From contig OZ026595.1 in NCBI GenBank assembly GCA_964020085.1, forward strand, positions 1,217,001 to 1,281,000: a stretch of DNA of 64,000 nucleotides, in the 5' to 3' direction. The position numbers and the translations under genes were made by a program. This DNA comes from Micromussa lordhowensis. Lineage: Eukaryota; Cnidaria; Anthozoa; Scleractinia; Lobophylliidae. Of the stretch, positions 16,657 through 37,777 are shown piece by piece (the first letter of the stretch is position 1; every line of letters begins with the position of its first letter). The notes beneath the pieces are model-generated. The model saw only the letters and a list, made by a program, of their open reading frames with translations. It did no database searches and had not been told where the DNA came from.

Positions 16657-16683
16657 GAGTTTGGAGAAAAGCACCCCGTTCTG

Positions 16684-20160: not shown

Positions 20161-20365
20161 CTCTGCAATTCTTCTTGAACTGAATGGATCGGTTTTATTC
20201 GATAAAAATGTGCGGATTGTTTTTTTGCAAGCTTGTGTCAGTGTGTTGTGGATTTAGAAAATATTCATTGCGGTATTATGGTGTGTGATGTAAATGTCTT
20301 CACGGCTTATTACGATTAGTCAGCTTTGACGGATGGTTTTTGTTGGGATATTTGTCCGTTAGTGA

Positions 20366-20640: not shown

Positions 20641-21842
20641 GCGTTGGTTAAATTTTCTCTAAGAGCCATCTTCCTCTAAATATTGATATTTATTTAATGT
20701 ACTACCACAGATCAACCAACGTGGGCGCAATAACAAATCCAGGTCCCAGGGGTCCCTGGGGAGCCATCTCTCGTGCACGAATTCTCCATTTCCCATGCTT
20801 CGAACGCTCAGGGCATGGTGAAGGTCAGGCATCACGGTAAAGGATGAGTTGTGGGTAATTAAGGGACATATAGTCAAGAGGTCGTTGTCAGCTAAGGTTT
20901 TGCGTGTCCTACCTGTAGCCGAACCCCTCCTGAATGGAATAAACAGTTTTCTCCGTGTAGGGGAGGGTACAGCCAAACGTGGTCACCGAAGGCCAGGCAA
21001 GTGTTAGTTGAGTGGAAAACCTTACGTTGTTCCCCGTTGTTGTTTGAGCCATGTTAAATAATAGTCAATTAATTACGAGAGATCATTCTCTCCTATTTTC
21101 CCCTGCAAACTTGGTGGATGAAACACAACAACAAAAACAAGCAGCCGCGGTCCAACAGCGCCTGCAGCGTAGGAGACAAGCAGGACTACCCACCAGTGTG
21201 TGTGCGTCTAAGTTTCTTTTTGTTATTCTTAAGTACAAAAAAGTACAACTGTTGAACTTCGACAGATCTCCAGTGACATTGAGTCGAATTACAAACAGCC
21301 CATTTCCGGCAGATTTAAATGTTGTTGGAAAACTTATTGGAGTTGTCTTCAGCCGCAGCTATGTCTCAACCAGATAAACCGCTAAAATCAAAAGCAGATA
21401 GGTATTTTTCTCGCCCACATCATAAGGAAGAGAAAAAGAAACAGAAAAGTGAGTGGAAACGAAGGCAGAGGGAGAAAAAAGTCAGGCAGAAGCGAGAAGA
21501 GACAAAAGAGACGCGCACATGGTCAGGAGGCTGAACGCGATGTTGAGGATGTCAGTTTTGCTCAACGCAACTTTCCCAGTGAGAAAAACGAAGAAGCCAC
21601 GTTGAACAGAGTACCGCTAGATTTGGGTGAGAAAAGTGGCAACCGCGCGGCACTACAATTCGACAAAAATGGCGAAGCCGAGAGAGAACGCTGAGAAGGC
21701 AGGGGCTGAGAAGGAAGGGCGCCGAAGGGACAAAGTGCAAGGACTTGAACGTAGCAGAGGGCGACAAATGCTAGCGTTATCGCTTAAAAGAAAGAGGATG
21801 GATTAACAGCCTCGCGTTTTCAGCAAATCGGCCGGAGCTGGA
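20641..21842 (+). other. Region upstream of kinase, Lys/Arg-rich open frames
   Basis: No recognised domain. A frame from ATG at 21361 encodes a strongly basic stretch (HHKEEKKKQKSEWKRRQREK), and the overlapping frame 21449-21694 is also highly charged. This may be the N-terminal tail of the kinase gene that follows, with frame breaks between, but there is no motif to prove it. The minus-strand frame 20659-20976 has no support. Confidence 0.3.
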
Positions 21843-22640
21843 ATGTCCACACGAGCTGCAGTTACGATCCCTGATCAGAAAAACCTACCAATGGTGCGAG
21901 AAATCTGCTCGTCGCTTCTAATTAAAACTAACGCGGATGAGCCGATAGGCTCAGGGACATTTGGAACTGTCTATTTGGCAGAATACAGAGACATGAAAAT
22001 GGCAGTTAAAGAGATTAAGAAAAGAAAGGACTCGCCCGAAGAAACTGAACGGTGTCGACGCGAGGTTCAGCACGAGGCTCGAATTCTTCAAAGTCTTGGT
22101 GACCACCAAAATCTTCCATTCCTTTTTGGTGTCTGCACAAAGAGGGAGCCATTCTGCCTCGTTCTTCAATTCTATGGCATTGACGGAAAAAGCACTACCC
22201 TCCATGAGGCTTTGTAAAACCGGCGACTCAAAAAAAAATCAACCGCCCGTGTTTTTTATGAAATTGCAGAAACTCTCAAATATATGCACAACAAAGGTGT
22301 ATTGCACAATGACTTGAAAACAAACAATGTGTTGATGCATCAAGGAAACTCGGGGGAACTTCATCCAATCCTAATCGATTTTGGCAAAAGTCGAGCTATA
22401 ACCAGAGCAAAGGGGTATCGGAGAGGTGACGTCGATTACCTTGCGCCGGAAGTGAAAGTGGGCAGAACGGAAAGTAAGCAAAGTGACATTTTTTTCTTTT
22501 GGCAAAATGCTTGAAGCAGCCGTTCGAGGGAGAAGTTTTCTTCTGATGTTTTCGGAACTAATTACCAGCACTACTGCAGCGGATGCCTCAAAAAGGCTAT
22601 CGGTTACTGAGGTTGTACATGCACTGACTAAGTTTTTTTA
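21843..22640 (+). pseudogene. Protein kinase-like gene, broken
   Basis: Kinase subdomains appear in order: glycine loop IGSGTFGTVYLAEY, VAIK-type lysine in MAVKEIKKR, helix C glutamate region, HND catalytic loop LHNDLKTNNVL (N in place of the usual R of HRD), DFG in LIDFGKSR and APE in DYLAPEV. The frame changes near 22215, close to a run of nine A, and again near 22490 in a run of seven T, so only fragments are open. ATP-binding and catalytic Lys, Asp and Asp are all present. It resembles small cnidarian kinases found near repeats. Whether the breaks are real or assembly indels cannot be told here. Confidence 0.65.
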
Positions 22641-22953: not shown

Positions 22954-23943
22954 TTATTCTTCAGTATAATTTGTCCGGTTATTAGGCGGCACAACCAACA
23001 GTTCTTCGTGAACAAAGCCGCGCTTAGGCCCGTCAGACAAATAATAGACAACAGGCTCATTTGGTTTGGTCTTATTTTCAACGACCTGGTAGACTTTCAA
23101 AGACCAGATCGGGTCTGTTGCTCTTTTGGTTCCGCCCTCAAGCTCACCAGGCTGATACAAATATCTCACATTGATGAGAGGGGGAAGTTTCTTTTCGGCC
23201 AGCCCAACAGGCCTGTTATACTTTGTTGGCAATGAGGAGACCGATTTTTCTTTGATCGCAACAGCGGGTTTTTTACCAATAAGGCTGGTCACCTCATTGT
23301 TCAGAGCGCTGCCAACATCGGGAAGTCTTTTCACCCACTCAGTTGAACGTTTGCCCTCAGGCAGAAGCATCTCCACGGCATACTGATGGCCAAACAAACG
23401 CTCAGCAAGCGTGCGATTGAAACGCTCGACGATTGCCTGATCTCTGTGAATTTCAGTGCGGCCGCGGCGGATGTAAGTTTTGTGTTTTTCCATTTCTTTC
23501 GAAACCCCGTCCATGAACTCGCATCCAGGGTCAACCTGCAACATCTGGGGCCAAGTCAAAGGGCCGCATTTGTAAATTGACTGGAACGCTTTTGCAACCT
23601 CTTCAGAGTCCTTCGAGGTAAGTGGCTCCGCTTCTTTGTAACGGCTGGCAATGTCAACAACAGTCAACGCGTATTTGTAAATCTTTCTTCCACGAGGAAG
23701 CTTGTCATGAGGTAAAAAAAGAAGGTCCGCTTGATGAACCGAGTTGGGCGCCCACACGTCAAATTTCGGGCGAGGAACGTATCGCGGGGCTGGAAGATAG
23801 ATCTGCCAAATGGCCTGTTTGTAGAGCCACTGTTTGGTAACATTTTCGGGCACTTTAGCGACTTCTGCCAATTTTTTTATTGCAGAGACGCCCTTCCAGT
23901 ACCCCTGGGGGCTGTAGTAGATTTTGGCGAGTTTGGCATCCAT
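22954..23943 (-). CDS. Retroviral-type integrase of the virus-like element
   Basis: This intact 329-codon frame starts at ATG 23943. It would insert the element into host DNA. The N-terminal ~60 residues precede PRPKFDVWAPNSVHQADLLF, which carries the first catalytic Asp. The second Asp is in MLQVDPGCEF and the Glu in QAIVERFNRTLAERL, the spacing of an rve-type DDE core. The C-terminal segment (VRYLYQPGELEGGTKRATDP, YYLSDGPKRGFVHEELLVVP) resembles the SH3/chromo-like tail seen in Polinton integrases. No stop or frame break is visible, so it may encode an active enzyme. ATAAATGG at the start places a TATA-like motif next to the ATG. It is the outermost gene on the left side, a common position for int. 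Confidence 0.85.
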   Translation of the reverse strand: MDAKLAKIYYSPQGYWKGVSAIKKLAEVAKVPENVTKQWLYKQAIWQIYLPAPRYVPRPKFDVWAPNSVHQADLLFLPHDKLPRGRKIYKYALTVVDIASRYKEAEPLTSKDSEEVAKAFQSIYKCGPLTWPQMLQVDPGCEFMDGVSKEMEKHKTYIRRGRTEIHRDQAIVERFNRTLAERLFGHQYAVEMLLPEGKRSTEWVKRLPDVGSALNNEVTSLIGKKPAVAIKEKSVSSLPTKYNRPVGLAEKKLPPLINVRYLYQPGELEGGTKRATDPIWSLKVYQVVENKTKPNEPVVYYLSDGPKRGFVHEELLVVPPNNRTNYTEE

Positions 23944-23968
23944 TTATTTTAAGGGGCGCAAAAAAAGT

Positions 23969-24397
23969 TCAAAGGAAACGAAAAGCTGCGTATGTAGGCG
24001 CGAGCGCGCCGCCGCCGACAAAAAGAAGCTCTCCCTGTTTCTGCAGCTCGCTTGGCTGGTACATGCCCGAGAAATTCGGCGCTTTGGGCAGAGTCAGTCT
24101 CTGGTTGGGGTGGGCCTGGTTGTAGAGCTTGAACGCGTAATCGGTGTTTGTGAAGTTTTTCTTCGCGTGTTCTTTGATTTCTTCGTTGGTGTCGATCCAG
24201 TCGAGCAGCTGTGTTCGCTCGCGTGAGTATTTTGCCATTGCTGACTGATAAGCCTCCAGGGCCTTGTCATGCCGCGTTTTCTCGTCTAAGGCAGTCTTGC
24301 CATTGTCACCGGCCAAAAATTTGGCGAGATAGTTGCCGCCAGTGAAAGCTGCCGCGTTGAGAACTGCGCCCCCAATCATCATCGCAATGCTGGCCAT
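23969..24397 (-). CDS. Small membrane-associated viral protein, 142 aa
   Basis: ATG at 24397, immediately preceded by TATAAA on the coding strand. The N-terminal 30 residues are glycine/alanine-rich and hydrophobic (MMIGGAVLNAAAFTGGNYLA). The middle is charged and helical, and the C-terminus again has a glycine-rich hydrophobic stretch (LLFVGGGALAPTYAAF). It is intact and separated from integrase by 25 bases. I recall close relatives as repeated uncharacterised proteins in cnidarian genomes. The role is unknown; a virion membrane or core protein is inference. Confidence 0.65.
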   Translation of the reverse strand: MASIAMMIGGAVLNAAAFTGGNYLAKFLAGDNGKTALDEKTRHDKALEAYQSAMAKYSRERTQLLDWIDTNEEIKEHAKKNFTNTDYAFKLYNQAHPNQRLTLPKAPNFSGMYQPSELQKQGELLFVGGGALAPTYAAFRFL

Positions 24398-24407
24398 TTT
24401 ATAAAAA
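24398..24407 (-). promoter_or_regulatory. TATA-like motif abutting start codon
   Basis: On the coding strand the sequence is TTTTATAAA joined directly to ATG of the 142-aa gene, leaving no room for an ordinary TATA-to-start distance. It is one of many such cases in this element. Confidence 0.4.
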
Positions 24408-24624
24408 AAAAGTTATTTTTTTTTCAAACCGGAATAATATTCTGACTACGCGTCAGGCCAAGGTTTCGTCCAAATATGCTTTTGTTCCCAAGACATTTTC
24501 CATTTTTTCACGTAAGGACGTATCGGGTGTTTTCGTCTTAGACGCAATGGGATAAAAAAGGCCGGGGGACTATGATAAGAGCAGCATGCACAGCGCGAGT
24601 CCATTTTATGTTAAGATTATTTTT

Positions 24625-24840
24625 TTAATTAGGAAGAATCTTCTGGTCTTCGAGATACTGTTTCAGCGCGATGCTGCCAGCCACCACAACGGTGAATTTG
24701 GCATAGTTCATCACATTGCTGCTGGGGTCTTGTGTGAAGTTTTCTTTCACGACCTTTTTCGCAATCCAGCCGATGCCAGCGGCCAGGCCGGTCAGAGTTG
24801 CAGCGTCCATGATTGTTTTCACAAGCTTGTTGTCAGACAT
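24625..24840 (-). CDS. Small viral membrane protein, 71 aa
   Basis: ATG at 24840. The protein has two hydrophobic segments, TLTGLAAGIGWIAKKV near residue 15 and FTVVVAGSIALKQYL near residue 50, joined by a polar loop. It is intact, with an A/T-rich TATA-like run upstream. There is no enzyme motif. It probably spans or binds membrane. Similar small proteins recur with the 142-aa protein in cnidarian repeats, as far as I recall, which supports a common element. Confidence 0.6.
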   Translation of the reverse strand: MSDNKLVKTIMDAATLTGLAAGIGWIAKKVVKENFTQDPSSNVMNYAKFTVVVAGSIALKQYLEDQKILPN

Positions 24841-25283
24841 AGTTATATTAAAAAAAATATTTTTTCAATTGTTATCGTTGGCGGGTTCCCAAACGTCTTT
24901 TTTTGAGGAAATGATTCGCCAGGCAATTTCACAACATGCCTTGGTGAATTCGTACCAGACAACGCTTATCACAAAGTTTGACGGGTAATTCAAATTTCGT
25001 AGCCATTTATTTATGAAAAATTGAACTTCAATCCATATCTCTAATTCTTCCTTCTTTTTTTGGCTCGACTGGAGGGGTGAAAAGGGCTTTTATCTCTTTT
25101 CGTTTGTAGTACATTCCAACCATTGAAAGAAAAATGCTGATGACACTCAGCCATTGTGTTGTTGTTAGAATTGTCTCAGGATCAGCATTTTTTTCCTGAA
25201 TGTTATTATTTGCACCCTGAGCCTCAGGTGTTGTTGTCTCAACATTCTCAGGGGTCTTTTTTTCCTGAATGTTGTTATCAAGA

Positions 25284-26119
25284 TCAAGACAAGACTGAGG
25301 TTGTTCTCATCAGCTCAAGGTATCGTCCCAGGCCTCCTTTGGACTCTCTTCAAATTGGCAATGTGACAGTTGTACCATCATCCTCAGCTCGTAATCGTGG
25401 CGTCATCTTTGATAAGTGTTTTAATTTTGAGGATCATATAAATTCAATTTGCAAGTCTTCTCATTATCACATAAGAAATATCGCCTATATCAGGAAGTAT
25501 CTGGACGAGGGGAGTGCCAAAATTGTTGTTCATGCCTTTGTTACTGCGAAATTGGATAGCTGCAATTCCCTGCTATATGGGCTACCACAACATCTAATTT
25601 CAAGACTGCAATCTATTCAAAACACAGCGGCTCGAGTTGTTACACGTACTAGGAAATTTGATCATATAACTCCTGTCCTCAAACAACTTCATTGGCTACC
25701 TGTCCGTTACCGTATAGTTTTTAAAATTCTCCTACTGGTCTACAAAGCTCTCAATGGAACAGCGCCTTCCTACATCAGTGAATTACTAATGTACCACACT
25801 TCTGAACGGAAATTAAGATCGTCCTCTCAACACCTTCTGGCGACCCCGAAAGCCAGACTGAAAACATATGGTGAGAGACCGTTTGCTGTGGCGGCATCGA
25901 GACTATGGAACTCGATCCCACTTGAACTAAGATCCAGTAGTTCGACGGACATTTTTAAACGACATTTAAAAACATATCTTTTTAAACAAGCTTTTTAAAA
26001 AGTTTTTTAACTTTTTATCTTTTTTTTATATATAACGTTGTGGAACTTTTAGCTTTTTTAAATATCTTTGTTAATGTAAAGCGCCAAGGACAAATAGTGG
26101 ATTGAGCACTATATAAATA

Positions 26120-26171
<52 letters not shown>
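25284..26171 (+). mobile_element. 5'-truncated CR1/L2-like non-LTR retrotransposon
   Basis: The open frame encodes the C-terminal end of a non-LTR reverse transcriptase: RLQSIQNTAARVVTRTRKFD, HITPVLKQLHWLPVRYRI, LVYKALNGTAPSY and AASRLWNSIPLELR, ending FKRHLKTYLFKQAF. About 130 bases of 3' untranslated sequence and a TTA-repeat tail follow, as in CR1/L2 elements. The RT core is missing, the usual result of incomplete reverse transcription. Codons before about 25284 in the same frame belong to the viral gene read in antisense. No clean target duplication was found. It was inserted after the viral element. Confidence 0.8.
26122..26171 (+). repeat. TTA trinucleotide microsatellite (LINE tail)
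   Basis: About 16 TTA/ATT units ending the retrotransposon 3' tail, just before viral sequence resumes. Confidence 0.9.
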
Positions 26172-26387
26172 TGCAATAATGGCCTTGGCCTCATCTAAAG
26201 CCTTTTTCTGCGCCTCGCGAGCAAGTCTCGTTTCTCAGCGATTGCTCTGCCGGCTGCCACCCGTTTTGTTTTTTTTTTTCAGGCTTTTTGGCGGGTGTTT
26301 GTGATGTCACTTGTTGGGTTGTGTCTGAATCAGCCATGATATATTTGCTGAAAAAAATATATTTAATTGCCGAGTAATGCTCAGCAA

Positions 26388-26914
26388 TTATTCAGCAGAT
26401 TGCTCAGCAGTTACTGAAGATTGCTCAGCAGTTTGCTCAGCAATCTCTTCAGCACTGAAATCAACATGTTTTGCTGTTATCAGAAACGCGTTGGCGGCTG
26501 CGAGCATCCGGCCGCATCTCAGCGCAACCTTGCCAGAAAGATTGGACAGCTCTTTTGTGATGTAGTCATTTTTCAACTCATTATGCAGGGCCTCGGTATC
26601 TTTGAGCCGCACCACTATGCCAAGTGCTTTTGTGGCGAATGAAAGAAAGCTGTCAATAAGGGTTTCTGTGGTCTTGGCGCCAACGTAGGTCTCGTACCTT
26701 TTGTAGGCCCTCATGACATCTTTGTCTGACAATCGCTCCACCTGACCGTGTGTCAGCTGCATGCCTATTGCTTCTTTGCATTTGCCTGTGGAAACCAGAA
26801 TGGCAAGCTGCTACGGAGCGCTGGAATGTCAGGGCCCGCATCGATGGGCTGTGCAGGCTCGACTTCAAGCATTTTCATGACATCAGTCAACGCGGGGTCG
26901 TTTTGTTCGGCCAT
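26388..26914 (-). pseudogene. Viral protein with TATA-start, frame-broken
   Basis: Starts at ATG 26914 (MAEQNDPALTDVMKMLEVEP), directly after ATATA. The frame breaks between about 26770 and 26830, and the main remaining frame, 26762-26388, carries LTHGQVERLSDKDVMRAYKR, YVGAKTTETLIDSFLSFATK and LRCGRMLAAANAFLI. It is rich in helix-forming residues and ends in a Glu/Gln/Ala/Ser-rich tail (EEIAEQTAEQ). No enzyme motif. I recall similar proteins accompanying this element type in cnidarians. Role unknown. Confidence 0.55.
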
Positions 26915-26937
26915 TATATAATTTATTTTTTTTTGTT

Positions 26938-27224
26938 TCAATTTGCAAACTTGAAAACGGGATATTGATACCCAGATGTTGAATTTTGCAAACCTTCATA
27001 CCTGATGTAAGAAGTTTTTGCCCGTCTGATGAGCTCCCAGTACAAAGAAGCTGGCGCGTAATACATTTTCACGACGCCATTCGTCTCGAGTGTGATGACA
27101 CTTATCAGTTTGTCGCAAGAGTTTTTACCGTGGCATTGGATTCCGTGATATTTGTACGTTCTCCCGGGGTCATTTCTCGCCAGTTCAAGATTTTTTCGGC
27201 TTCTTCGAATTGTTGCTCCATCAT
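26938..27224 (-). pseudogene. Small viral protein of about 95 aa, frame-broken
   Basis: Two adjacent Met codons lie at 27224 and 27221. The first half reads QQFEEAEKILNWREMTPGE and breaks near 27113. The second half, in another frame, has SVITLETNGVVKMYYAPASL and YIRYEGLQNSTSG and ends at TGA 26938-26940. The beta-rich pattern could be a small OB-like fold, which would suit a single-strand DNA-binding role, but this is a guess. It lies 9 bases downstream of the ATPase stop, so the two genes are tightly packed. Confidence 0.45.
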
Positions 27225-27233
27225 GCCTTAATA

Positions 27234-27830
27234 CTACATTTCTTTAATTTGGTAAGGGTGCCGCAGTGAAAGAATCAGATATGCAAACTTGCGCTCTTTC
27301 AGCCTTGAAATCATCTGATTGATTTCTTTGTATGAATGGTCGCCGCCGTATTCTTCGAAGATTGCCTTTGTAGTTTTCGCCGATGGCGTGTAAAAGAGAA
27401 CGATTGCCGCCAAATTCTCTCTGAAAGGCTTCGCAATGCTCGAAAGCTGCTGGGTGAGCACCCAAACGCTAATGCCGACATGTCGAGCCGAAAAGGCGAG
27501 TTTTACAAGCTCCCCAGTGTGATCTTTCACATCTTTTGATGAAGCGCAGTCATCAAGGATGATGAGGGTGTTGTCGCCTTCGAAATAAAAACTCGCCACT
27601 TTCAGCCAACTTTCAACTTGGTGTTGCTCACAGATGATGACATACACCCAAGGATCTCTCTCCGCAAACCGGTACAGCGTTCTGTTATGGGCGAAGGTTG
27701 GGCAGATTAACACGATGTAATCAAACTTGCCGCGGAATGGGCCGCAGAGTTGATTCACAAGAAAATGCGTCTTGCCAGAGTTGGTCGGCCCGACTATTAG
27801 CGCGTTGAAGGGGATGTTGTCAGGATCCAT
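27234..27830 (-). CDS. FtsK/HerA-type DNA-packaging ATPase
   Basis: A 198-codon intact frame starting at ATG 27830. The upstream in-frame codons to 27854 begin at TTG and overlap the preceding gene, so I prefer this start. Walker A is GPTNSGKTHF near residue 18, Walker B is TLIILDDCAS near residue 95, and a later polar motif is SVWVLTQQLSS. This is the pattern of the A32-like packaging ATPases that pump genomes into double-jelly-roll capsids in Polintons, adintoviruses and large DNA viruses. About 200 residues is at the short end of that family. It lies between the capsid gene and small genes, and all key residues are present. Confidence 0.85.
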   Translation of the reverse strand: MDPDNIPFNALIVGPTNSGKTHFLVNQLCGPFRGKFDYIVLICPTFAHNRTLYRFAERDPWVYVIICEQHQVESWLKVASFYFEGDNTLIILDDCASSKDVKDHTGELVKLAFSARHVGISVWVLTQQLSSIAKPFRENLAAIVLFYTPSAKTTKAIFEEYGGDHSYKEINQMISRLKERKFAYLILSLRHPYQIKEM

Positions 27831-27850
27831 TTTCAATACTGCATATAAAT

Positions 27851-29118
27851 TCAAAACTGCACAGATTGCAGCTGCTTGTTCATTATGTTAAACTGGGAGT
27901 CAGCGATTATGAAAACATGGCCGTTTACAGTTCCTGAACCCTTGGCGTCTTTCTCGATTTCCAGCTGCACGCCGTCTGTTGTGTTCACGAGGCAGGTGCC
28001 GCTGCCATGCATTTGTTGGCTGGCCATGGAGCGCAGATCGATCAGAAGCCCGAACTTGTCTTCGGTGTAGAACTTCTGAAGAGTCATGAACTGGGGTTTT
28101 TCTTTTTCTTTCATGAAGAAGCGGCTCACTTCACTCCAAATGTCCCGACTTTCGATGCCGTTATTGTACAGCATGTTTGGCGAGCCGTTTATCGTAACGC
28201 TGATTTTCTTGACGTCCGGGAAAATGTATTTTTCCGAATCTCTTGCCCCTGGGGCGTACGACTCCATAAACAGCAAGAGGATCCCCTTCAATGACCGTCT
28301 TTGGGCGTTGACTTTTATGTTTATTCTCTTTTCTGTTCCTCTGTCGATTGGGATCACTTTATCACGGACCACGTAGTCGTATAAAAACTCTTTGCCGCTG
28401 GCGTAAATGCTGGCTGCCTGTTCTGCAAGATCCTTACTTCGGATCATTTCATACTGAAGCTGGATGTTCTTCAGCTTGTATTTCAGCTTGGTCGTGTCCG
28501 AGCCTCTGACCACTTGGCTAGCTGGAGCGAGGGTCACTTTAAATATGAGGTCACTGTACAACGCCTGGGGGTAGAAAATTCCGTGGTCTGTCAAGATCTG
28601 GTGGTCCAGATTGATTCGATATTTGGTGCCGTAAACTTTTTTTCGACGTCGACACCTGATGTTTTTTTGTCCCCAGAATTTGAGCGGATCTTGCACAAAT
28701 CTTTGCTCTGGATGCCCTCAGGCACCATGTTGTCCCGCTTTTCTCCGGGCCAAAAAAGGTCCTTGAACATATTGTATATGTCATGGCCGACGGTTTCTTC
28801 CAAAATCGTGCCTTCAAACTTCACAATAAGCTTGTCCACGAGTGCTCGCGAGACGTTCTGGACAAGGAAGTTGTTCGCGTGCCCCCCAGAAAGGTCGATA
28901 TCAAATATCAGGGCCAAAGAGTTAGGCACAAGGACTTCGTTCTCGTTCAGCTTGGGGACGTGAACATACAGAGTCTCGCCTGGGTTTGCTTCGGAAGGGT
29001 TGAAAGTTATGCGCTTTACAGCGCGCGGTGCCTTTATGGCGCGCATTATTTTTTTGCTATTTTCTGGTAGAAGGTCATCTTGCACAGCATTTTCAGCCTT
29101 TTCATTTTCCACAGACAT
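27851..29118 (-). pseudogene. Candidate major capsid protein, one frame break
   Basis: Starts at ATG 29118, next to TATACC, and ends at 27851, giving about 420 codons. The first frame runs 29118-28591 and the second from about 28660 to 27851. The break lies close to T runs at 28639 and 28659. Beta-strand-rich segments such as NPGETLYVHVPKL, SLALIFDIDL, YRINLDHQILTDHG and GSPNMLYNNGIESRDIWSEV, with a place directly before the packaging ATPase, fit a double-jelly-roll capsid protein. Length is shorter than many Polinton MCPs (about 500-600). I infer MCP from context and style, not from a computed fold. Alternative: another structural protein. Confidence 0.6.
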
Positions 29119-29174
29119 GGTATAAATGAAAAAATATAATTTCTAATTTAAAAAAAAAACTTGTTTATAAATAA
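29119..29174. promoter_or_regulatory. 56-bp bidirectional promoter between capsid and coiled-coil genes
   Basis: The only sequence between two divergent start codons. It is nearly pure A/T, with TTTATAAATAA leading straight into the plus-strand ATG and a TATACC directly before the minus-strand ATG. Transcripts must have almost no 5' leader or start within the genes. Confidence 0.5.
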
Positions 29175-30579
29175 ATGACAGAAGGCAGCTATTTTGGTTA
29201 CGATGATCCTGATCTTGACTATCAGATTGACCACGACGACGGCGACGATAAAAAAGACAAAACCCAGCAGTTCGTGCCTGGCGTGGCGTCAACACCCTAT
29301 CAAGGCAGAGAACAATATGAAATAAAAACGATGATGCGCGAGCAGAGTGGGCTGCCCGATACTTCTTATAATGAAAAAACCCCTCTTTTATCAACCGCAG
29401 AAATCGCTTTGAGAGAAAACCCAATAACTGGAATTATTGATACAACAAAAATTCCAGATAAAATTGAAAACCCATTGAGCCGAGAGGATAAAGAAGAACA
29501 AATCAGGCAAGTGAAAAAATAAATCAAAAAAAGATTTCCCAATGCTAATGTTGATGGCCTGATGATAAATTACTCTACCAAAAAACCAACGGATATTGTC
29601 GTTTTTGGGCCCAAAGGCGGAGAGACAAAAATAGTTTTAGCTGATGGCAGCGACTTACAAAAAAGCTTCCTAGACAAGGCTTTTGTCAAGAGTAAACTAG
29701 GGCCGCCTGCAAGAGATCTAATACAAAAAACATCCGCAGACATAAGAAAAAAGCAAAAAGAATTGAAAGATTTACGAACTTCTGAACAACTTTCAAGAAA
29801 CAAAGATGAAGAGATACAAACTCTGAATGAAAGGGTGAATAAAGAGCAGGCCAAGATCGATCAGCTTAAAGATGACCAAGGGGCAGGTAATAAAGCAGAA
29901 ATAAAAATGAAAGAACAACTTGTAAAAAATTTAAAAAAAAGAATTGAAAACCAAGCAAAAGGAGAGAGGAGATCTTAAAAAAAAACTGGAAACCATCGGC
30001 CAACTTGAATCAAGTATTTCTGAAGAAGAAAGAAAAAGAAATACCATGGAAGAAAGGCTCAACAGCACAAAAACTTTTGATACTTTGAAAGAGCAGGAAA
30101 GCCATCTTCTGCGGCTAAACGAAGAAGACCAGGCGATCATTCAAGATGAGATGGCATTATCAATTGATAAAGAAGCCGCAGAAGAAAGAGTTGCGGCTAG
30201 AAATGAAGAGATCGCGCGACTTCAAACCCAGATCGCAGAAAGAGAAGCTAACATGCCTCTCCGAGAAAGAGTTCGCGAGATCTTCAAAAAATATGGAGTG
30301 ACGGTGGCATCAATCTTTATCGCCGCCGGTGTCACTATCGGGCCGGTTATTGGGGCAATCACCAACGCTTTGAAATCCATGGGCAAACAATTGGCAAATG
30401 GTCTTAAAGCGGTTGGGGCGAAAGCCGCTTCTGCGCTGCCTGGGCTGATCGGAGCTGTCGTCAGCTTCCTTTTCAAAACTGCCGGACAGGCAATCGGCTA
30501 TCTAGCCGAGCACACCTGGCTAATTATTCTCGCGGCGGTTGTTTTTATTTTTGAAAAGTATATCAAAAGGCGGGGCTAA
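29175..30579 (+). pseudogene. Coiled-coil protein with C-terminal membrane segments, two frame breaks
   Basis: Three consecutive frames, 29175-29522, 29562-29978 and 29944-30579, together span about 465 codons with one theme. Breaks lie in A-rich homopolymers near 29515-29535 and near 29935. The N-terminus is acidic (DYQIDHDDGDDKKDK). The middle is a long coiled coil (KKQKELKDLRTSEQLSRNKD and many heptads), and the end has Gly/Ala-rich hydrophobic stretches (IFIAAGVTIGPVIGAI, IILAAVVFIFEKY) and a basic tail. The shape suits a virion protein linking core or capsid to membrane. Family unknown. Its TAA at 30577-30579 overlaps the stop of the convergent gene. Confidence 0.55.
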
Positions 30580-32150
30580 CGCATCGCCTTAAATATCAGG
30601 GCAACAACTCCTACTACGCCAACAATTACGGCGGTTTTGTTTATTTCGTGCTGCGGCGGCGGTTTTTCTGAAACAGTTTCTTTTTTTGAAATTTGTTTAT
30701 CTTTTGGCTGCGCAGCTTTGTGGATCGGATTTGAGGGATGGCTGTTTGGCGGGTTGATTTTTGATGGCCCCCCTTCCATCAGTCGTATGCCCACTTTTTT
30801 TGTTCCTGAATTTACGTCGTTGTTCACGCCTAGCTTCATTCCTGGAACTGCTTGCTTCAGTCTGTTGTTATATCCAACCGTGCTTTTCGTGTTGATGATC
30901 ATTGTCGCCGGCATCAACCACACTCCAGGGCACACTGCAAGATTCAGCCTGACCTTCGCTTCATCAACCGCGAGCTGATACCTTTGCACGCTCTTCGCCA
31001 AATCTGGCTGCCTAATAGCGTCTTCCATAAGAGTCAAGAACTCCGTCTGTGCCTCTTTTGCTCTCCCACCTGCCCCAATTATGCTGCTCCTAACATTAAC
31101 TTGCGCGCCCAAGATGCAGTAAACGAAAGCCTCAATCGACTGGTTAATGCGTGCAAGCCCCGCTTGTGTCAAACCTGATGTTTTTTTTGGCGCGAACCAG
31201 TCGTACTGGCTAAATGCCACACCATCGAGCTCAATGAAAGCTAGCAAGTTTCCATCTTTTGCTTTCCCCCCTTCATCGGCGAATTTGTAAAACCCTCCTG
31301 GATATTCCGCCCCCGTTTTCATTGGCCTGTGCCCTGACACGCCGATGTATACGTCACCCAGACCGTGTTTTTTTCTGCTTGTGAACCGGAAATCGCTTGT
31401 TGGGTCTATCCCGAACTCCGCGCATATCCGTTTGTATGAGGCCACGTCGTAATGATTGGCTGATAAATTGAATGTTGGGTCTCCGGGGAGTGCGCTTATG
31501 CTCTGGATACCCCCCATCTGGAACAAAATTCTCCGGACTGTAAAATACAAGTGAAATCTGTAGAAGGCCCGAACTTGTGGAGAAAGATTCAGGCCGCTGC
31601 CAAAGATTTCTCTCGAAATTCCGCAGTCTTGCGTTGCGCAAAATACGGCGAAGTTTAGCTGCTGCGGCCAATAGTCCATATGCGGCCCTCCTAGCCAGCG
31701 TTTTGCTTCTGCTGCGAAGTTGTGCCTTATTCTTGTGTTTTGAAATATTTCCCTCAATCTCACCACAAAGAAAGAATCTGGTCTCACGTAAAGGTTTATC
31801 GGCTTGTTGAAGATTTTATTCAGGCTTGGTGCTGCTTCAGTGAAATCTACTGCGGGAATTGACAGCGCTTTTTCTGTTCTCAGCGGCGACAGTTGATATG
31901 GAAACCCTTCCACACCTTTCAAACCGAGCGCGGCCTTCATTTGCGGGCTCCAATATTTCCTGTCCGATCCAAACACGCTATGGCCTCCCTTCAAAAACAT
32001 TTCAGATCCTGTAATGTTCCCTTTGCCATCAGAGTATACTTGAGCAAAGAATTGGCTTTTGTCCGCGTTCGGAAACTGTGCTGTCAATTCTTCCCACGTG
32101 CTTTTCTTTGATGCGGCTATTTGAGCTGTTGTTGGTTGGAGGTCGTCCAT
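30576..32150 (-). CDS. 524-aa orphan protein with C-terminal membrane anchor
   Basis: The longest intact viral frame. The open frame extends upstream to 32198, but ATG 32150 (MDDLQPTTAQIAASKKSTWE) is the better start because it follows a TATAAC motif and leaves a 32-base divergent spacer. The body is globular with many aromatic residues (HLYFTVRRILFQMGG, KHGLGDVYIGVSGHRP, YPGGFYKFADEGG). A Pro/Lys-rich linker (residues ~455-500) leads to one C-terminal membrane segment (AVIVGVVGVVALIF). There are no enzyme motifs. Candidate roles are a minor virion protein or a membrane-anchored attachment or maturation protein. No frame break in over 1.5 kb, unlike its neighbours. Confidence 0.65.
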   Translation of the reverse strand: MDDLQPTTAQIAASKKSTWEELTAQFPNADKSQFFAQVYSDGKGNITGSEMFLKGGHSVFGSDRKYWSPQMKAALGLKGVEGFPYQLSPLRTEKALSIPAVDFTEAAPSLNKIFNKPINLYVRPDSFFVVRLREIFQNTRIRHNFAAEAKRWLGGPHMDYWPQQLNFAVFCATQDCGISREIFGSGLNLSPQVRAFYRFHLYFTVRRILFQMGGIQSISALPGDPTFNLSANHYDVASYKRICAEFGIDPTSDFRFTSRKKHGLGDVYIGVSGHRPMKTGAEYPGGFYKFADEGGKAKDGNLLAFIELDGVAFSQYDWFAPKKTSGLTQAGLARINQSIEAFVYCILGAQVNVRSSIIGAGGRAKEAQTEFLTLMEDAIRQPDLAKSVQRYQLAVDEAKVRLNLAVCPGVWLMPATMIINTKSTVGYNNRLKQAVPGMKLGVNNDVNSGTKKVGIRLMEGGPSKINPPNSHPSNPIHKAAQPKDKQISKKETVSEKPPPQHEINKTAVIVGVVGVVALIFKAMR

Positions 32151-32182
32151 TATGAAACCTGTTATATCCATCCAATATAAAA
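32151..32182. promoter_or_regulatory. 32-bp bidirectional promoter
   Basis: Sits between divergent starts at 32150 and 32183. It contains CCAATATAAAA directly before the plus-strand ATG and GGATATAAC before the minus-strand ATG. Confidence 0.45.
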
Positions 32183-32842
32183 ATGGTTGTTCTAACAATT
32201 GTGATGCAAAAGAATGGAGATACTGTCTACTTTGACGAGCCGATCTCCCAAGCTCATTTCATGAAACTGATCTCGTGCAGTTTATACAACAGCTGGCATA
32301 CTTTGAAAAGAGAAGGTAGTGCAGTGTTGGGTGATGAAAAAAAGGATCCTTCTGTTTCTATTTCAAAAATACCTCCAGGGCATTACAATTTGGAAGGTAT
32401 GGCAAAAGTAATAGACGGCCTGTTCGATAAGTATAAATATAAACAATTAGAAACAGAAATAAACACACCTGTGGCCATTCTTGACAAAAAAAATTTGGGG
32501 GCGAAAAAATAACCCTTGATCGTGACTTGGCCAATTTATTAGGTATTAATCGGGTGCTAGACCTTACAACACACGTAAAAAATCTCAGATATCCAACAAC
32601 ATACTTCATTCATTGCAATCTTATCGACAAAAACCAAAACTTTTTGAACAACAAAAAATCGATGTTTTGGCTAAACTCGATTTAAAAGGCAAGCCTTATG
32701 ATTTTTCACTAAACATGAGCCTTTTCGCGAATGTTCTACAGTTTCACATGTTCAAAGCATCACAGTAAGTGTCAGGGACCAAGATGCCGAGCTGTTCGAT
32801 TTCAACGGCTTTCCTCTCGAATTCGTTTTGGAAATAAAATAA
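32183..32842 (+). pseudogene. Candidate penton-like minor capsid protein, frame-broken
   Basis: Starts at ATG 32183. The first frame runs to 32512 and contains VYFDEPISQAHFMKLISCSL and KIPPGHYNLEGMAKVI. The frame breaks near 32490-32505, in A and G runs, then near 32660 in an A run, and again before 32760. The last frame ends SVRDQDAELFDFNGFPLEFV at TAA 32840-32842. The ending pattern (charged turn, then DFNG and alternating hydrophobic strands) is like the jelly-roll ends of minor capsid proteins in Polinton-like viruses. I infer that role with modest confidence. It is followed 15 bases later by the next gene on the same strand. Confidence 0.5.
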
Positions 32843-32857
32843 ATTTCTATTTATACA

Positions 32858-33493
32858 ATGTCTTCCGCGAAAGTTCTGCAGCCATCCGCGCCTCCTGAAA
32901 ACATATACCCCGAAATTCGGCCTCCTGATCCTGACTTCAGGATGCAAAAAGTTAATGAAATTTCTACCGATCTGAACAAAGAAGTTGACCACTATCGGGC
33001 TGTTGCACAAAAATATAAACGTGCCAAGAAGGTTTTCAACTGGAGTGCGGCCGGCTCGAGCGTTCTTTCGGCCGCTTTTTCAAGTGCGAGTTTTGGTTCT
33101 GCTCTTTCTTTTGTCGGCCTACCGGCCACATTACCTCTTGGCGTCGTTGGTGGGTGTTTCGCTCTCGCTTCTTCAGGGCTCATCATCGCCTGCAAAAAGT
33201 TTGATTCGAAGATAAAAAAACATAGAGAGATTGTCACGCATGCAATTGCGAAACACGACACGATTGATCGGCTGCTTTCCAAAGCCCTGACTGACAATCA
33301 AATATCAGACCGCGAATTTCAGTTGATTATGGCTGAATTTTCGCAGTACAACTTGCTGAAAGAGTTTGTTCGGGCAAAACTCACGCGGCATTCGTCTCGA
33401 CCTGACATTGATAAGATAAAAAAATATGTCCGCAGCGAAATGGAAGCAGATTTCAAAAAAAAACTAGCCGCTCTAGCCGACGGTTCGAATTAA
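32858..33493 (+). CDS. Viral protein with Gly/Ala-rich membrane hairpin, 211 aa
   Basis: ATG at 32858 after TTTATACA. Residues 1-35 are Pro-rich (SAPPENIYPEIRPPDPDF). Residues 60-110 form a long hydrophobic small-residue stretch (SSVLSAAFSSASFGSALSFV, LPLGVVGGCFALASSGLIIA), likely two membrane passes. The rest is helical and charged, ending in basic segments. Intact. A Pro-rich N-terminus followed by a hairpin could be membrane-penetrating or scaffolding. I recall near relatives in cnidarian repeats. No enzymatic motif. Confidence 0.6.
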   Translation: MSSAKVLQPSAPPENIYPEIRPPDPDFRMQKVNEISTDLNKEVDHYRAVAQKYKRAKKVFNWSAAGSSVLSAAFSSASFGSALSFVGLPATLPLGVVGGCFALASSGLIIACKKFDSKIKKHREIVTHAIAKHDTIDRLLSKALTDNQISDREFQLIMAEFSQYNLLKEFVRAKLTRHSSRPDIDKIKKYVRSEMEADFKKKLAALADGSN

Positions 33494-33534
33494 AATTTGA
33501 AAAATTTCATTCCGGCTTTCATTTAAGCGTGTCT

Positions 33535-33602
33535 CGTCACGCGTGATACGTCACGTTGCGTCACGCGTGATACGTCACGTTGCGTGACTCGTCACGCGTG
33601 AC
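33535..33602. repeat. 24-bp iterated array of CGTCACG motifs
   Basis: CGTCACGCGTGATACGTCACGTTG occupies 33535-33558 and is repeated exactly at 33559-33582. A related CGTGACTCGTCACGCGTGAC follows at 33583-33602. Each unit contains the palindrome TCACGCGTGA and several CGTCA half-sites of the CREB/ATF type. It lies in the widest gap of the element, between 33493 and 33826. Replication-origin iterons or an enhancer are both reasonable. Confidence 0.75.
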
Positions 33603-33825
33603 ATGTGACAAAAAAATCACATTTATAAAATGATCATATTGATTCACACAATTTGTAACGTTATCGCCGAACTTTCGTTGCCATATCAAGTCATAAACGC
33701 GATGAAAGAGGCAAAAAAAAATGAAACTGCTGTTTGAGACATTTTTTGCCGCGTCACATGTAAACAAACCTTAATTTGCATACGCTTAAAAACGTTCGTC
33801 GCTTGCTTTTGGTGCGTTGCTTGTT

Positions 33826-34083
33826 TCAACTATATAATAAAGAAATCTTTTCCCTTTCGTTCAAAATCTTACGCAACCGTTTTTCGGCGCGCATTGATAA
33901 GATGACTTCTCTGTCACCAGATTCAATAACAACCTTGTCTATATCAGTATCTTCATAAATGTCATCGGCTGAGGCAATTACTTCTTCTTCATTTTTTGAG
34001 ACAAAATAGTAGGCAATCAGCCCAGCCGAGGCCCCAACCGAAGCTGTTATTAAAAGGCACGATAGCTTTAAGATGAAACCCAT
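33826..34083 (-). CDS. Small signal-anchor membrane protein, 85 aa
   Basis: ATG at 34083, preceded by GATAT. The N-terminal 28 residues are hydrophobic (GFILKLSCLLITASVGASAG), resembling a signal peptide or signal anchor. An acidic stretch (EDTDIDKVVIESGD) and a basic end follow. Intact. Unknown role; the topology suggests a virion or host-membrane protein. Confidence 0.55.
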   Translation of the reverse strand: MGFILKLSCLLITASVGASAGLIAYYFVSKNEEEVIASADDIYEDTDIDKVVIESGDREVILSMRAEKRLRKILNEREKISLLYS

Positions 34084-34185
34084 ATATCAATACATTAAAT
34101 TCTTTCAATTGAAATGTTTTTGCCTCGCCACATGCAAACAAACTTGAATTTGCATATAGAGAAATTTTTGAATATATATATAGTG

Positions 34186-34626
34186 ATGGAGGAAATAGTG
34201 CCCTTCGATGAGGAAGAAAGAGAAATAATGATTCAGGGGATGACAGATGAAGAATACAAAAATGCCTATGGGCCAATTGAAGATGCCTTTGACGTGCAGG
34301 GAGACTGTGCGTGTGCTTATTGTGGGTCGATTTTGAAAGCAAGTTTAGTAAACAATGGCGTCGAAGAGCAAGTCAAATGGCGTGACGTGATGGAGGGGAG
34401 AGTACCCTTCGATCCTGAGGTGGTAAGAGAAATAATGTGGCAGGGAATGACAGATGAAGAATACAGAAATGCCCAAGAACCAATTGAAGATGTCTTTGAC
34501 GAGCAGGAAGACCGTTTGTGTGGTTGTTGTGGGCCGCTTTTGCAGGTAAACAATGGCGTCGAAGAGAAAGTCAAATGGGATGCCGCTATGAATAAGGGAA
34601 AAATTATTTTTATGGTTTCAATATAG
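34186..34626 (+). CDS. Internally duplicated CxxC protein, 146 aa
   Basis: I choose ATG 34186 rather than the upstream Met at 34114, because the first 24 codons look non-coding and a TATATATATAG motif ends three bases before it. The protein is two tandem copies of a ~68-residue unit. Each has VPFD, QGMTDEEY, a PIEDxFD acidic stretch, a Cys pair block (CAYCGS in copy 1, CGCCGP in copy 2) and NNGVEExVKW. The Cys pairs may bind zinc or form a redox site. Copies differ at many positions, so the duplication is not recent. No family recognised. Confidence 0.6.
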   Translation: MEEIVPFDEEEREIMIQGMTDEEYKNAYGPIEDAFDVQGDCACAYCGSILKASLVNNGVEEQVKWRDVMEGRVPFDPEVVREIMWQGMTDEEYRNAQEPIEDVFDEQEDRLCGCCGPLLQVNNGVEEKVKWDAAMNKGKIIFMVSI

Positions 34627-34639
34627 ACAAGTGGAATAT

Positions 34640-34882
34640 TTAATTACCAGAAACGTTCGATGTTTTGTCGCCGCCGTCTTTTGGTAAAAGAAAATTGGCA
34701 AGCTGCCGCGGATTCATGTTTTTCATAAATTCAAGGACCTGTTCAGGTACGGGTAGTTTTTTTGTTTCCATGTTTGGTGGACGTAAATATATCGTCGACA
34801 TGCCTCGTTCTCTTTGGCCTCTTGTAGGTTCTACTTTCCGTTGGCTTTGATTTATCAGACTTCCTCTTCTTCCTCTGCCCAT
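34640..34882 (-). CDS. Small basic viral protein, 80 aa
   Basis: ATG at 34882 gives a strongly basic N-terminus (GRGRRGSLINQSQRK). An alternative start is MSTIYLRPPN at residue 28. The C-terminal half reads VPEQVLEFMKNMNPRQLANF, a short helical domain. A DNA- or RNA-binding packaging protein is possible. It is the last recognised gene of the element, convergent with the CxxC gene, with stops 13 bases apart. Confidence 0.5.
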   Translation of the reverse strand: MGRGRRGSLINQSQRKVEPTRGQRERGMSTIYLRPPNMETKKLPVPEQVLEFMKNMNPRQLANFLLPKDGGDKTSNVSGN

Positions 34883-34944
34883 AATACAATAACTTTACAT
34901 TTCTTCAAACTAAAAAATAATTCTTGGACAAGTCCTTGTAATCT

Positions 34945-35102
34945 TACACACACATAATGAGGCGTTCTGGGACCGGGGTTCTGGGACCGGGGTTTTGAGT
35001 ACCTGACGGCGAGCTTTGCGAGCCGGCGGGTACTCAAAACCCCGGTCCCAGAACCCCGGTCCCAGAACCCCGGTCCCAGAACCCTCATTATATATGTGTG
35101 TA
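34945..35102. repeat. Long palindrome of 14-bp GGGACCGGGGTTCT repeats
   Basis: Left arm (about 34945-35003) and right arm (about 35029-35102) are inverted copies, each ending in an ACACAC/ATAATGAGG tract. The left arm holds two 14-bp repeat units and the right arm three. The loop, 35004-35028, is itself partly self-complementary (GGCGAGC...GAGCCGGC). The structure should form a strong hairpin or cruciform. It sits exactly between the virus-like element and a BEL/Pao fragment. Confidence 0.85.
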
Positions 35103-35935
35103 CCTTTATGTCGAAGGTCTCTGGGAGCATACATCAAAGATCTGATGGTCATTATGAGATGCCCCTGCCATTCAAACAAGAAACAGTTGCATTGCCTGAC
35201 AACAAGGAAGTAGGCCTTAACCGTCTCAGCAGATTGAAGAGGAGACTTAAGACTGAAAGCAAATATCGGAAAGACTACCTGGCTTTCATGAGTAACCTCA
35301 TTGAATGTGGCCATGCTGAAAGGGTCTCTACGAAGAAGTTGAAATGAAAAATGGCCAAGTCTGGTATATCCCTCACCATGGTGTTTACCATCCAAAGAAA
35401 CCAGATAAAATAAGAGTCGTCTTCGACTGTAGTGTAGAGTTCAGTGGTGAATCCCTTAACCAACACCTCCTCCAAGGCCCTGATCAAACCAATAACCTGG
35501 TTGGCGTGCTTAGTCGATTTCGTCAAGAGCCAGTTGCTGTTATGTGTGATATAGAAGGCATGTTTCATCAAGTCCACGTAAACCCAGAACACTGCAAATT
35601 TATCTTTGGTGCTACCTCCTCGACAGACTGTGCAACATTTGCACTAAAGAAAGTTGCGAGTGATTATGAAGATCAGTGCGGAGCCGAAGCTGCTGAGAAA
35701 TAACTTTTATGTTGATGACGGTTTAAGGTCAGTGTCAACACGTGAACCAGCTACAAGCTTGGTTAAGAGCACAAAGATGTTGTGCCGGAAGGGTGGATTC
35801 AACCTCCATAAGTCTGTTTCCATCCACAAGGCTGTGATAGATTCTATACTGCAAGATGGCCGTTCCAAAGTTCTTCAGAATCTGGACCTGACCAATCCAA
35901 AAACCTCTCGCCGCTACACTTTACGTCAATGTTAA
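35103..35935 (+). pseudogene. BEL/Pao reverse transcriptase fragment
   Basis: Contains MPLPFKQE, RLKRRLKTESKYRKDYLAFM, QVWYIPHHGVYHPKKPDKIR, FDCSVEFSG and VMCDIEGMFHQVHVNPEHC. A jump follows to FGATSSTDCATFALK, then a frame change and FYVDDGLRS. Compared with the copy at 14315, about 40 codons are missing after VNPEHC, and there is a stop at 35345-35347. It is a different BEL/Pao family from the 13.7-18.5 kb element, judging by sequence. No LTR or integrase was seen, so it is a relic. Confidence 0.8.
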
Positions 35936-36290
35936 CCAATAAATAAATAACTCTTACCTTTATTCTAGCCTTTACTTTAGTCCGATGCCCCTCATGATTT
36001 TTCCAAGCGACACTCTCCACGGCATATATTAAAACAAAAACCTTGCTATAAAACAATTACCAAAAAGACGAATCAACCCTTCCGTCGTTTTCTTCCACAA
36101 GTTGCAACATTGGTGTGTTTCATTCGTAATAAAAGAGCTTTGTTTCTTCGGTTCACTCTCCATCGCTTCAAATGTGACAGTAGTTTGTTTACTGAAGCTC
36201 TTGTAATGTGGACAAATAATAAAACTACCACTTGGCTTAATTCACTGTCACCTGAAGACAAAGAAAAGTGATGCAAGAGCAAACACCGGT
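35936..36290. other. No supported gene
   Basis: Only short frames without motifs. It may be 5' sequence of the following decayed repeat gene. Confidence 0.4.
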
Positions 36291-37066
36291 GCAATTCTGG
36301 CTTAGTACAAGGAAAGAAAAGAGAATTTCCAGCAACAGAAGGAGAAGTTGTTAGAGAAACAGATAGCAAAGGAGGAAGGCAAAAGGAAATTGGGACAGCA
36401 AAGACTTAATATAGTAAACGGCATTGCAAAGTTGGGGGGTCCATGAAGTCTGAAAAAGAAATGAAGGATGGTCTGATGAAGTTTGCTTCTGAAAAACAAA
36501 GACAAAAGGCACTTGTTACAAAGCTCCAGTTTCAAAAAGTGGTCCTTCAAGCAAAAGGTCTGACAAAGGAACACTTTCAGCAAGGAAAAAGTGTGGCAGG
36601 CAAATGGGTCGTTTTTTCAGCTGAGCAGCTTGCCAAACACTTACTGGAAGTTCTTGAACTCAACAGCTTTCAAGAAACTGAGCCCGAAAATGAAGGTGGA
36701 CTCACCTAGCGGAGTACAGACAATCGGGCCAAAACCTTGTCCGAAGAGAAAACCAAGCTTACAAAGAAGCTACGAGATGCCTGTCAAAAGGTCTTAATTA
36801 TTACATGTAGGAGCAAAAACAATGCTTCTGCAGTTTCGAGAAAATGCTCTTCTCTTTGTTGGAAAAAGGGTCATGCACAACTGCATTGAGGATGGTTCTG
36901 AGCGAGCGGAATGGTTTAATGCAACTGTCTTGCACCTTGCTGAAAATGTTACTGTTGGAGCAGATCCTGAATACATTATAAAATATGATATTGATGAAGA
37001 TGATGATGAATGGACAATGCCATTACTTAAAGATTTAGACAAGGGAGATTTAATTTTACTTCATTA
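36291..37066 (+). pseudogene. Decayed repeat-family gene: coiled coil plus WFNATVL domain
   Basis: A charged coiled coil in broken frames at 36310-36440 leads into MKSEKEMKDGLMKFASEKQR and KLQFQKVVLQAKGL, then a frame change. A final frame, 36822-37067, has LFVGKRVMHNCIED, AEWFNATVL and YIIKYDIDEDDDEW before PLLKDLDKGDLILL. The last part looks like a small Tudor-like beta domain. I recall this combination in repetitive uncharacterised proteins of cnidarians, probably transposon-encoded. Function unknown; at least two frame breaks. Confidence 0.45.
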
Positions 37067-37137
37067 ATATTGACTTGAACATATTTTTGGGAATTGCCTA
37101 GTTCCATAAATATCTATACCTCCTCCACGGAAGGGTT
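37035..37137 (+). repeat. Direct repeat of ~103 bp, copy 1
   Basis: Starts TTTAGACAAGG and ends CTCCACGGAAGGGTT. Copy 2 at 37311-37412 differs at about ten positions. Copy 1 contains the stop region of the preceding decayed gene, so the repeat duplicated its 3' end. Confidence 0.8.
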
Positions 37138-37310
37138 TTGTTTTTATAAGATCCCCCCACCCCTCTGGAAATGCCAATAAAACTTCATAAATTTATTTTA
37201 ATTTGTTGGTTTTCGAGACCCCCACCCCCTCCCCCAGGAATTTACAATCCCTTCTGCGTGGGGAGTATGGGTATTTTCTAGAACAAAACATACCAGCATG
37301 CTCTTAAGCT

Positions 37311-37412
37311 TTAGACAAGGGGAATTTAATTTTACTTCATTAATATTGACTTGAACATGTTTTTTGGAATTGTGTAGTTCCATAAATATCTATACCTCCT
37401 CCATGGAAGGGT
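37311..37412 (+). repeat. Direct repeat of ~103 bp, copy 2
   Basis: Begins TTAGACAAGGGGAATTTAAT and ends CCATGGAAGGGTT. It is separated from copy 1 by about 174 bases of C-rich DNA. Confidence 0.8.
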
Positions 37413-37427
37413 TAGGACAAGGGGGAT

Positions 37428-37700
37428 TTACGCAACGGTTAACAAAACAAGAGGAGAGGAAAGGGCATTGCATGACCTGACAAACAATGAGGAGGTAACA
37501 ATTGTTCCTGCCGACAAAGGGAGATCCGTAGTTGTAATGGATAAAGATGAATACCAAGAAAAAGTATCTGTTTTATTGAACGATACAAACACGTATTTGA
37601 AAATCACAGACAAAACATCAAATCCAACATCAAGCGTCAAAAATGATCTAAACAAACTTTTACTTAACATCAAAGCACGATTGATCAGTCATTTAAAGCA
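37428..37700 (+). mobile_element. Penelope-like element fragment
   Basis: The frame reads HDLTNNEEVTIVPADKGRSV, then VVMDKDEYQEKVSVLLNDT. The IVPADKGRSVVVMD block lies just before the reverse transcriptase core in Penelope-like elements. No RT catalytic motif or GIY-YIG endonuclease follows, so only the N-terminal part remains. Confidence 0.65.
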
Positions 37701-37777
37701 GGAACTTGTCTTCCATCAGCCACCCCAACAGTCCAAAGCGGAGGTCGTGTATAGTAGGTCGATATCGTTGATAGATG

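Follow-up and report, generated by a model that had tools for sequence, protein, structure and literature searches.

The stretch of DNA analysed here, 64 kb long and referred to throughout as the window, contains a set of virus-like genes at about 22979 to 34945. We consider it very probable that they are a truncated, decaying copy of a Polinton/Maverick, an adintovirus-like integrating DNA virus with a double-jelly-roll capsid, in the genome of a cnidarian, most likely a stony coral, and that the arm carrying its type-B DNA polymerase (PolB) was removed by rearrangement. Of the genes that define Polintons/Mavericks, an rve-type integrase, an A32/FtsK-like packaging ATPase and a double-jelly-roll major capsid protein are present in this copy, and the protein-primed PolB is not. 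Because PolB was not found, the copy is filed as a truncated derivative rather than as a complete member. A preliminary description had proposed an endogenous virus-like element here, and this is supported, as the integrase, ATPase and capsid genes are real. It had also offered two explanations for the absence of PolB. Was the polymerase lost from this copy, or is this an undescribed lineage that does without one? The evidence supports the former, since the left end of the copy cuts off the last codons of the integrase and a relative has PolB directly past that point. The claim of an undescribed PolB-less system does not stand on the evidence of this copy.

The integrase and the probable loss of the polymerase arm

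The integrase frame (23943-22954) had been called an intact DDE integrase. It is open and matches Pfam rve (1.2e-5, 26.0 bits; family cut-off 32.6), but its last codons are replaced by unrelated sequence. It has 4147 homologous clusters, those listed being mostly 85-92% identical, and most of the listed homologues carry PF00665. Residues D73, D138 and E173, which we take to be the catalytic triad of a DDE enzyme, are kept in the alignment with a 35-residue spacing (D-D35-E). A search of phage records with the integrase gave one weak match (E 5e-3).

The end of the protein is where the copy departs from its family. LPP is found within the last 12 residues of 115 of the 120 listed homologues, and the window integrase deviates from residue 322 on. 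Among these 120 its odd ending is shared only with P0241 (98% identical, 323 amino acids (aa), on a 2.35-Mb contig), which would be expected if P0241 were this locus in a different assembly. P0247, which also has no terminal LPP, has LPP further inside. The alignment with the integrase of a second relative, L001, likewise ends at residue 322. Therefore the homology of the element ends near 22979, on the side where L001 has PolB.

L001 (JANQFH010000027.1, 5112 bases), titled as an Oligoflexia metagenome-assembled genome (MAG) contig, was the one locus found when GTDB prokaryote genome contigs were scanned with the integrase alignment (A4); the capsid alignment (A2) found none there. Its integrase frame (1-879) is 63% identical to that of the window over 284 alignment columns. 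On the opposite strand are three overlapping frames of 344, 473 and 464 residues, convergent with the integrase and with 13 bases between the integrase stop and the PolB-side stop. The middle, 473-residue frame contains DNA_pol_B_2 (2.2e-15), and the frame adjoining the integrase contains YTDTDS, presumably a polymerase motif. Judging by the other matches of the family, L001 is probably eukaryotic host DNA contaminating a bacterial bin. Its outer end matches neither side of the window element. In IMG/VR contigs no locus was found with the ATPase, the 531-aa protein described below, A1, capsid A2, the integrase, integrase A4 or an L001 PolB piece.

Within the window no PolB was found, as had been reported: six-frame translations of 24400-27250 and 33500-42400, with stops read as X, gave none when scanned against Pfam, nor did tblastn of three L001 PolB pieces over the whole 64 kb (best E 0.21). 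An adenain-like protease had no Pfam match in the named open reading frames (ORFs) or in the same six-frame scans, 27250-33500 being scanned only in its named ORFs. The reported absence of long terminal inverted repeats also held in flank comparisons with 20 shuffles: none was convincing, no inverted pair joins both flanks, and the score of one pair, 16.5, stayed below the highest of its 20 shuffles (22.0).

The right end looks broken as well, because a foldback repeat and a 5'-truncated BEL/Pao fragment lie there. Relative to the other BEL/Pao frame of the window, this fragment (35105-35869) starts at residue 103, and tblastn found nothing of the absent first part in the DNA that separates the element from that other copy, which lies at 14-18.5 kb. 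Since both ends look like break points, little can be concluded about the family from the lack of PolB here. Most likely the PolB gene is missing because that end was cut off, rather than because the virus is of a new kind that has no polymerase.

It is unlikely that this is a Polinton lineage truly without PolB, one that keeps its integrase, packaging and capsid genes and relies on the polymerase of the host, of PolB-bearing Polintons or of a helper virus. Such a lineage would fit the lack of any PolB trace when the 64 kb were searched with pieces of one relative, with the integrase, ATPase and 531-aa frames still open, and the thousands of homologous clusters of the integrase, capsid and 531-aa protein, which mark these genes as widely kept. 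However, the integrase tail is clipped just where the relative has PolB, the right end appears broken too, and no intact PolB-less copy was seen. As the leading interpretation it was ruled out by the clipped integrase and the PolB of L001, and coral Mavericks and a PolB-bearing polinton/adintovirus of the coral Stylophora have already been reported. The tempting claim of a PolB-less animal Polinton lineage is thus replaced by a simple cause: the copy ends inside the integrase, on the PolB side.

Under the truncation reading, an intact element would insert by means of its DDE integrase and would replicate with a type-B DNA polymerase (protein-primed in Polintons) encoded convergent with, and just past, the integrase. 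The A32-type ATPase would package its DNA into a capsid built of the double-jelly-roll protein. The ancestor of the window copy would itself have had PolB past the integrase, until a rearrangement with its break in the last integrase codons took the polymerase arm away. Frameshifts have broken the capsid gene, and probably the penton gene too, and a retrotransposon-like fragment has probably landed in a small gene.

Packaging, capsid and a conserved protein family

The proposal of an intact packaging ATPase was confirmed: ORF 27830-27234 matches Pfam Pox_A32 (1.3e-11, 44.9 bits, cut-off 22.8) and a PHROG terminase family (3.4e-9). It had no match in phage records. By sequence, nothing in the PDB was found for A1, A3, the ATPase or the 531-aa protein, and the capsid piece gave three matches (E 0.36-0.47) that were taken as chance.

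The double-jelly-roll capsid candidate of the preliminary description (29118-27851) is real, but it is broken across two frames. It has 2133 homologous clusters, and 94 of the 120 listed are 395-420 aa long. As the majority of those listed have one frame of about 416 aa, the two frames of the window indicate a frameshift in this copy. The predicted fold is a double jelly-roll. When an intact homologue (P0123) was modelled and searched with Foldseek, 45 of 50 PDB rows at E<=0.001, classed by entry title and chain length, were double-jelly-roll capsid chains; the model itself is poor (predicted local distance difference test score, pLDDT, 46.4; query-normalised template-modelling score 0.23-0.37), and the other five of the 50 rows are BcsB or PNGase chains.

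The quality of this model and those five rows are among several points that weigh against our interpretation. The rve score of the window integrase is under the Pfam cut-off. Three of the 120 listed integrases (P0302, P0325 and P0335) are without the LPP tail through small changes of their own, and a local tail change, instead of a break, is possible in the window integrase. L001 is a single contig of another subfamily, filed in a bacterial MAG; it is cut inside its integrase and so shows no capsid gene, and it is the only relative with a readable flank, none coming from the window's own subfamily. The PolB-negative Pfam scans are weak evidence, having missed the BEL/Pao fragment within a scanned stretch. 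A second flank pair scored 23.0, above the highest of its 20 shuffles (20.5), in a gapped match that crosses the 80-aa ORF and was not accepted as a repeat. The 2133 capsid and 4147 integrase clusters would fit equally a subfamily that had lost PolB and spread. Finally, the promoter-like enrichment described below weakens when starts are chosen mechanically or AT-rich ATGs serve as the background.

The candidate penton gene (32183-32842) went unconfirmed. It consists of several frames, which may be one decayed gene, and a 109-aa piece of it had no Pfam or PHROG match.

For the frame 32150-30576, which had been named for fold prediction, nothing was found in favour of a jelly roll. It belongs to a conserved 531-aa ORFan, for which the structure model was useless (pLDDT 39.7). 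At E<=1e-3 it has 2056 homologous clusters among 7988 scored candidates. The best 120 of the 2056 are 60 to 91% identical, one of them named, from the stony coral Oculina patagonica. When 25 rows were aligned, 131 columns were invariant and a hydrophobic helix was seen at the C-terminus; no significant relative was found in Pfam, PHROG or, by sequence, the PDB. We regard it as a putative virion protein, probably anchored in a membrane. A coral Polinton is reported to have a stand-alone terminal protein, and this role was considered too; the C-terminal hydrophobic helix would speak against it.

Do these genes belong together in other copies? The exact length of the longest contig of each cluster was compared across the 120 listed rows for each gene. 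The 531-aa and capsid lists have 10 such lengths in common, the 531-aa and integrase lists 5, and the capsid and integrase lists 13, with less than 0.1 expected by chance in each case under a crude log-uniform model. One length (693654) is present in all three lists. The 531-aa, capsid and integrase genes are therefore linked to one another in many copies.

It is extremely improbable that the host has domesticated the capsid/integrase cluster and keeps it for use against viruses. The open integrase, ATPase and 531-aa ORFs argue for this; against it, the capsid and penton-candidate frames are broken, a retrotransposon-like fragment lies inside, and elements of this kind are repetitive.

Upstream signature, small genes and neighbouring repeats

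The starts of the element genes share a promoter-like signature. Among 14 curated starts, TATA lies at most 16 bases from the ATG in 10 and TTGA lies within -33 to -18, at about -24 to -30, in 7. All 14 curated starts, some of them picked with an eye to the motif, have one or the other; among 358 other ATGs of the element the share is 11.2%. In 20000 random draws of 14 of the other ATGs neither the TATA nor the TTGA count was reached. When ORFs of at least 100 aa were taken mechanically, the signature was found in 8 of 14, with p 3.9e-5 when the other ATGs of the element serve as the background and 4.1e-3 when AT-rich ATGs from the rest of the window do. For TATA alone p was 1.2e-6 and 2.6e-3 against the same two backgrounds, and TTGA alone fell short of significance in three of four comparisons (p 0.11, 0.034, 0.12, 0.24). 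Of the six mechanical ORFs without the signature, one is antisense, four are internal pieces or begin at downstream ATGs, and the last is the 170-aa ORF read from its first ATG. Two PolB-side starts examined in L001 have no TATA within 16 bases.

Similar motifs have been described for asfarvirus late promoters (TATATA at the start site) and for asco/iridovirus and mimivirus promoters (AAAATTGA) (PMC5294985, PMC11788076). The signature is reminiscent of these giant-virus promoters, and we offer it as a lead and not as a result on mechanism. It is very unlikely that the element is virophage-like, with genes read in the cytoplasm by a giant-virus type RNA polymerase, whether or not it has PolB. 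The 14 of 14 curated starts, with a layout like that of the published asfarvirus, asco/iridovirus and mimivirus motifs, argue for this possibility. Against it stand the 8 of 14 mechanical ORFs, the mostly non-significant TTGA and the partly motif-guided choice of starts; AT-rich starts may explain part of the signature, no giant virus is in evidence, and the two L001 starts do not carry the TATA. A bolder version, highly improbable in our estimate, is that the genes of the family, the capsid module included, would be transcribed from compact TTGA...TATA-ATG promoters of giant-virus type. The family would then be an animal virophage-like virus that depends wholly on the factory of a helper giant virus for its expression and perhaps also for its replication, and PolB-less copies would live off the helper's polymerase. 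The signature can be tested on any intact copy.

The features of the element and its right border are listed in Table 1. Within the 170-aa ORF a tandem DNA repeat (34183-34380 and 34387-34578, 79.6%) places CxxC pairs in each half of about 200 bases. The ORF of the insertion (25144-25998) has no Pfam match, and its assignment to a long interspersed nuclear element (LINE) was made by eye. GC-rich direct repeats of a 24-base unit with the palindromic GTCACGCGTGAC lie at 33527-33609 in an otherwise AT-rich intergenic stretch and may be an origin or a site to which a protein binds. The start of the 170-aa ORF (about 34117-34164) recurs at 33743-33790, near two ORFs, perhaps as a duplicated control region.

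Table 1. Features of the element and its right border, by position in the window
Feature	Position	Strand	Basis and remarks
Remaining part of the Polinton/Maverick	22979..34945		Limits approximate; both probably break points, not natural ends
Retrovirus-type (rve, DDE) integrase	22954..23943	-	ORF open; last ~8 codons are unrelated sequence
142-aa ORF, hydrophobic N-terminus	23969..24397	-	ORF; best Pfam E 0.1
Small ORF of ~70 aa, hydrophobic stretch	24625..24840	-	Stop-to-stop frame; TTGA/TATA upstream
Small gene, probably split by insertion	25028..26391	-	Pieces 25028-25306 and 26191-26391; frames stop near the insert borders
Insertion, probable 3' LINE-like retrotransposon fragment	25144..26180	+	ORF 25144-25998, TAT run 26118-26171; borders approximate
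Small ORFs, possibly one decayed gene	26388..26995	-	Frames 26388-26810 and 26765-26995
A32/FtsK-like genome-packaging ATPase	27234..27830	-	Intact ORF; Pfam Pox_A32
Double-jelly-roll major capsid protein gene	27851..29142	-	Two frames, 28591-29142 and 27851-28717, overlapping at 28591-28717
Coiled-coil protein, C-terminal hydrophobic region	29175..30579	+	Three frames (115, 138, 177 aa), presumably a single decayed gene
Conserved 531-aa ORFan	30576..32171	-	Intact, longest open ORF of the element; C-terminal hydrophobic helix
Candidate penton (minor capsid) gene	32183..32842	+	Frames 32183-32512, 32485-32685 and 32550-32768; assigned by eye
211-aa ORF, hydrophobic stretches	32858..33493	+	No significant family
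85-aa ORF, N-terminal hydrophobic helix	33826..34083	-	ORF
170-aa ORF, internal tandem duplication, CxxC pairs	34114..34626	+	ORF; weak zinc-ribbon match (0.014)
80-aa ORF, the rightmost recognisable gene of the element	34640..34882	-	ORF; TTGAA at -26
Foldback repeat at the right break point, like a miniature inverted-repeat transposable element	34961..35084		Inverted repeats I1-I4
5'-truncated BEL/Pao pol fragment adjoining the right side of the element	35105..35869	+	Found by tblastn with the other BEL/Pao copy of the window (E 4.6e-45)

The left break point is adjoined by an intronless, frameshifted protein-kinase pseudogene at 21807-22640 (Pkinase 5.9e-17 in one piece). It was considered as cargo of the element (21807-22511); its start is without the upstream signature, and it was therefore treated as lying outside. 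Elsewhere in the window, the BEL/Pao retrotransposon at 13667-18518 has 570-base terminal repeats that are 98.9% identical and is a young copy near far more decayed elements. Tandem-like repeats of about 127 bases with GTGACGG motifs lie at 19267-20293. At 50748-54199 a reverse transcriptase (RVT_1 3e-15) is followed by a tyrosine-recombinase-like ORF, a gene pair that we take to be as in DIRS/Ngaro elements.

Comparison with known systems

Polinton-like viruses and mavirus-type virophages share the capsid/ATPase module with the window element, and mavirus-type virophages also share the rve integrase (PMC4642659). Polinton-like viruses are marked by a PgVV-like capsid. They are described as being without an rve integrase, with a single exception (PMC4642659), and in this they differ from the window element.

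The Stylophora coral adintovirus StCAV resembles the element in its coral host and in being of the Polinton/adintovirus kind (PMC11071308). It differs from the window copy in being described with a PolB that has a fused OTU domain and with a separate terminal-protein gene (PMC11071308). A Stylophora pistillata polinton/adintovirus with PolB has thus been described (PMC11071308), and no report of a PolB-less coral Polinton lineage was found among the papers listed by literature searches, judged by titles and abstract openings. L001 has an integrase of the same family, 63% identical; it differs in having a type-B DNA polymerase convergent with the integrase, and its capsid side is off the contig.

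Animal Polintons/Mavericks (PMC4028283, PMC8097293) are like the window element in their rve integrase, A32/FtsK-like ATPase, double-jelly-roll capsid and small ORFs on both strands. In intact vertebrate Mavericks, PolB and the integrase are generally in two opposite-strand modules (PMC8097293). The window copy is set apart from them by having no PolB, no recognised protease and no convincing inverted repeats in the window, and its 531-aa ORFan matched no named Polinton protein. In three coral genomes Mavericks account for 5.20, 6.74 and 1.41% of the DNA (PMC12005156), and the element is a virus-like Maverick (Polinton) of the kind abundant in coral genomes. Its capsid and 531-aa families presumably belong to elements classed as Maverick repeats in papers on coral genomes. 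Both are well conserved, with more than 2000 sequence clusters each, and they deserve names.

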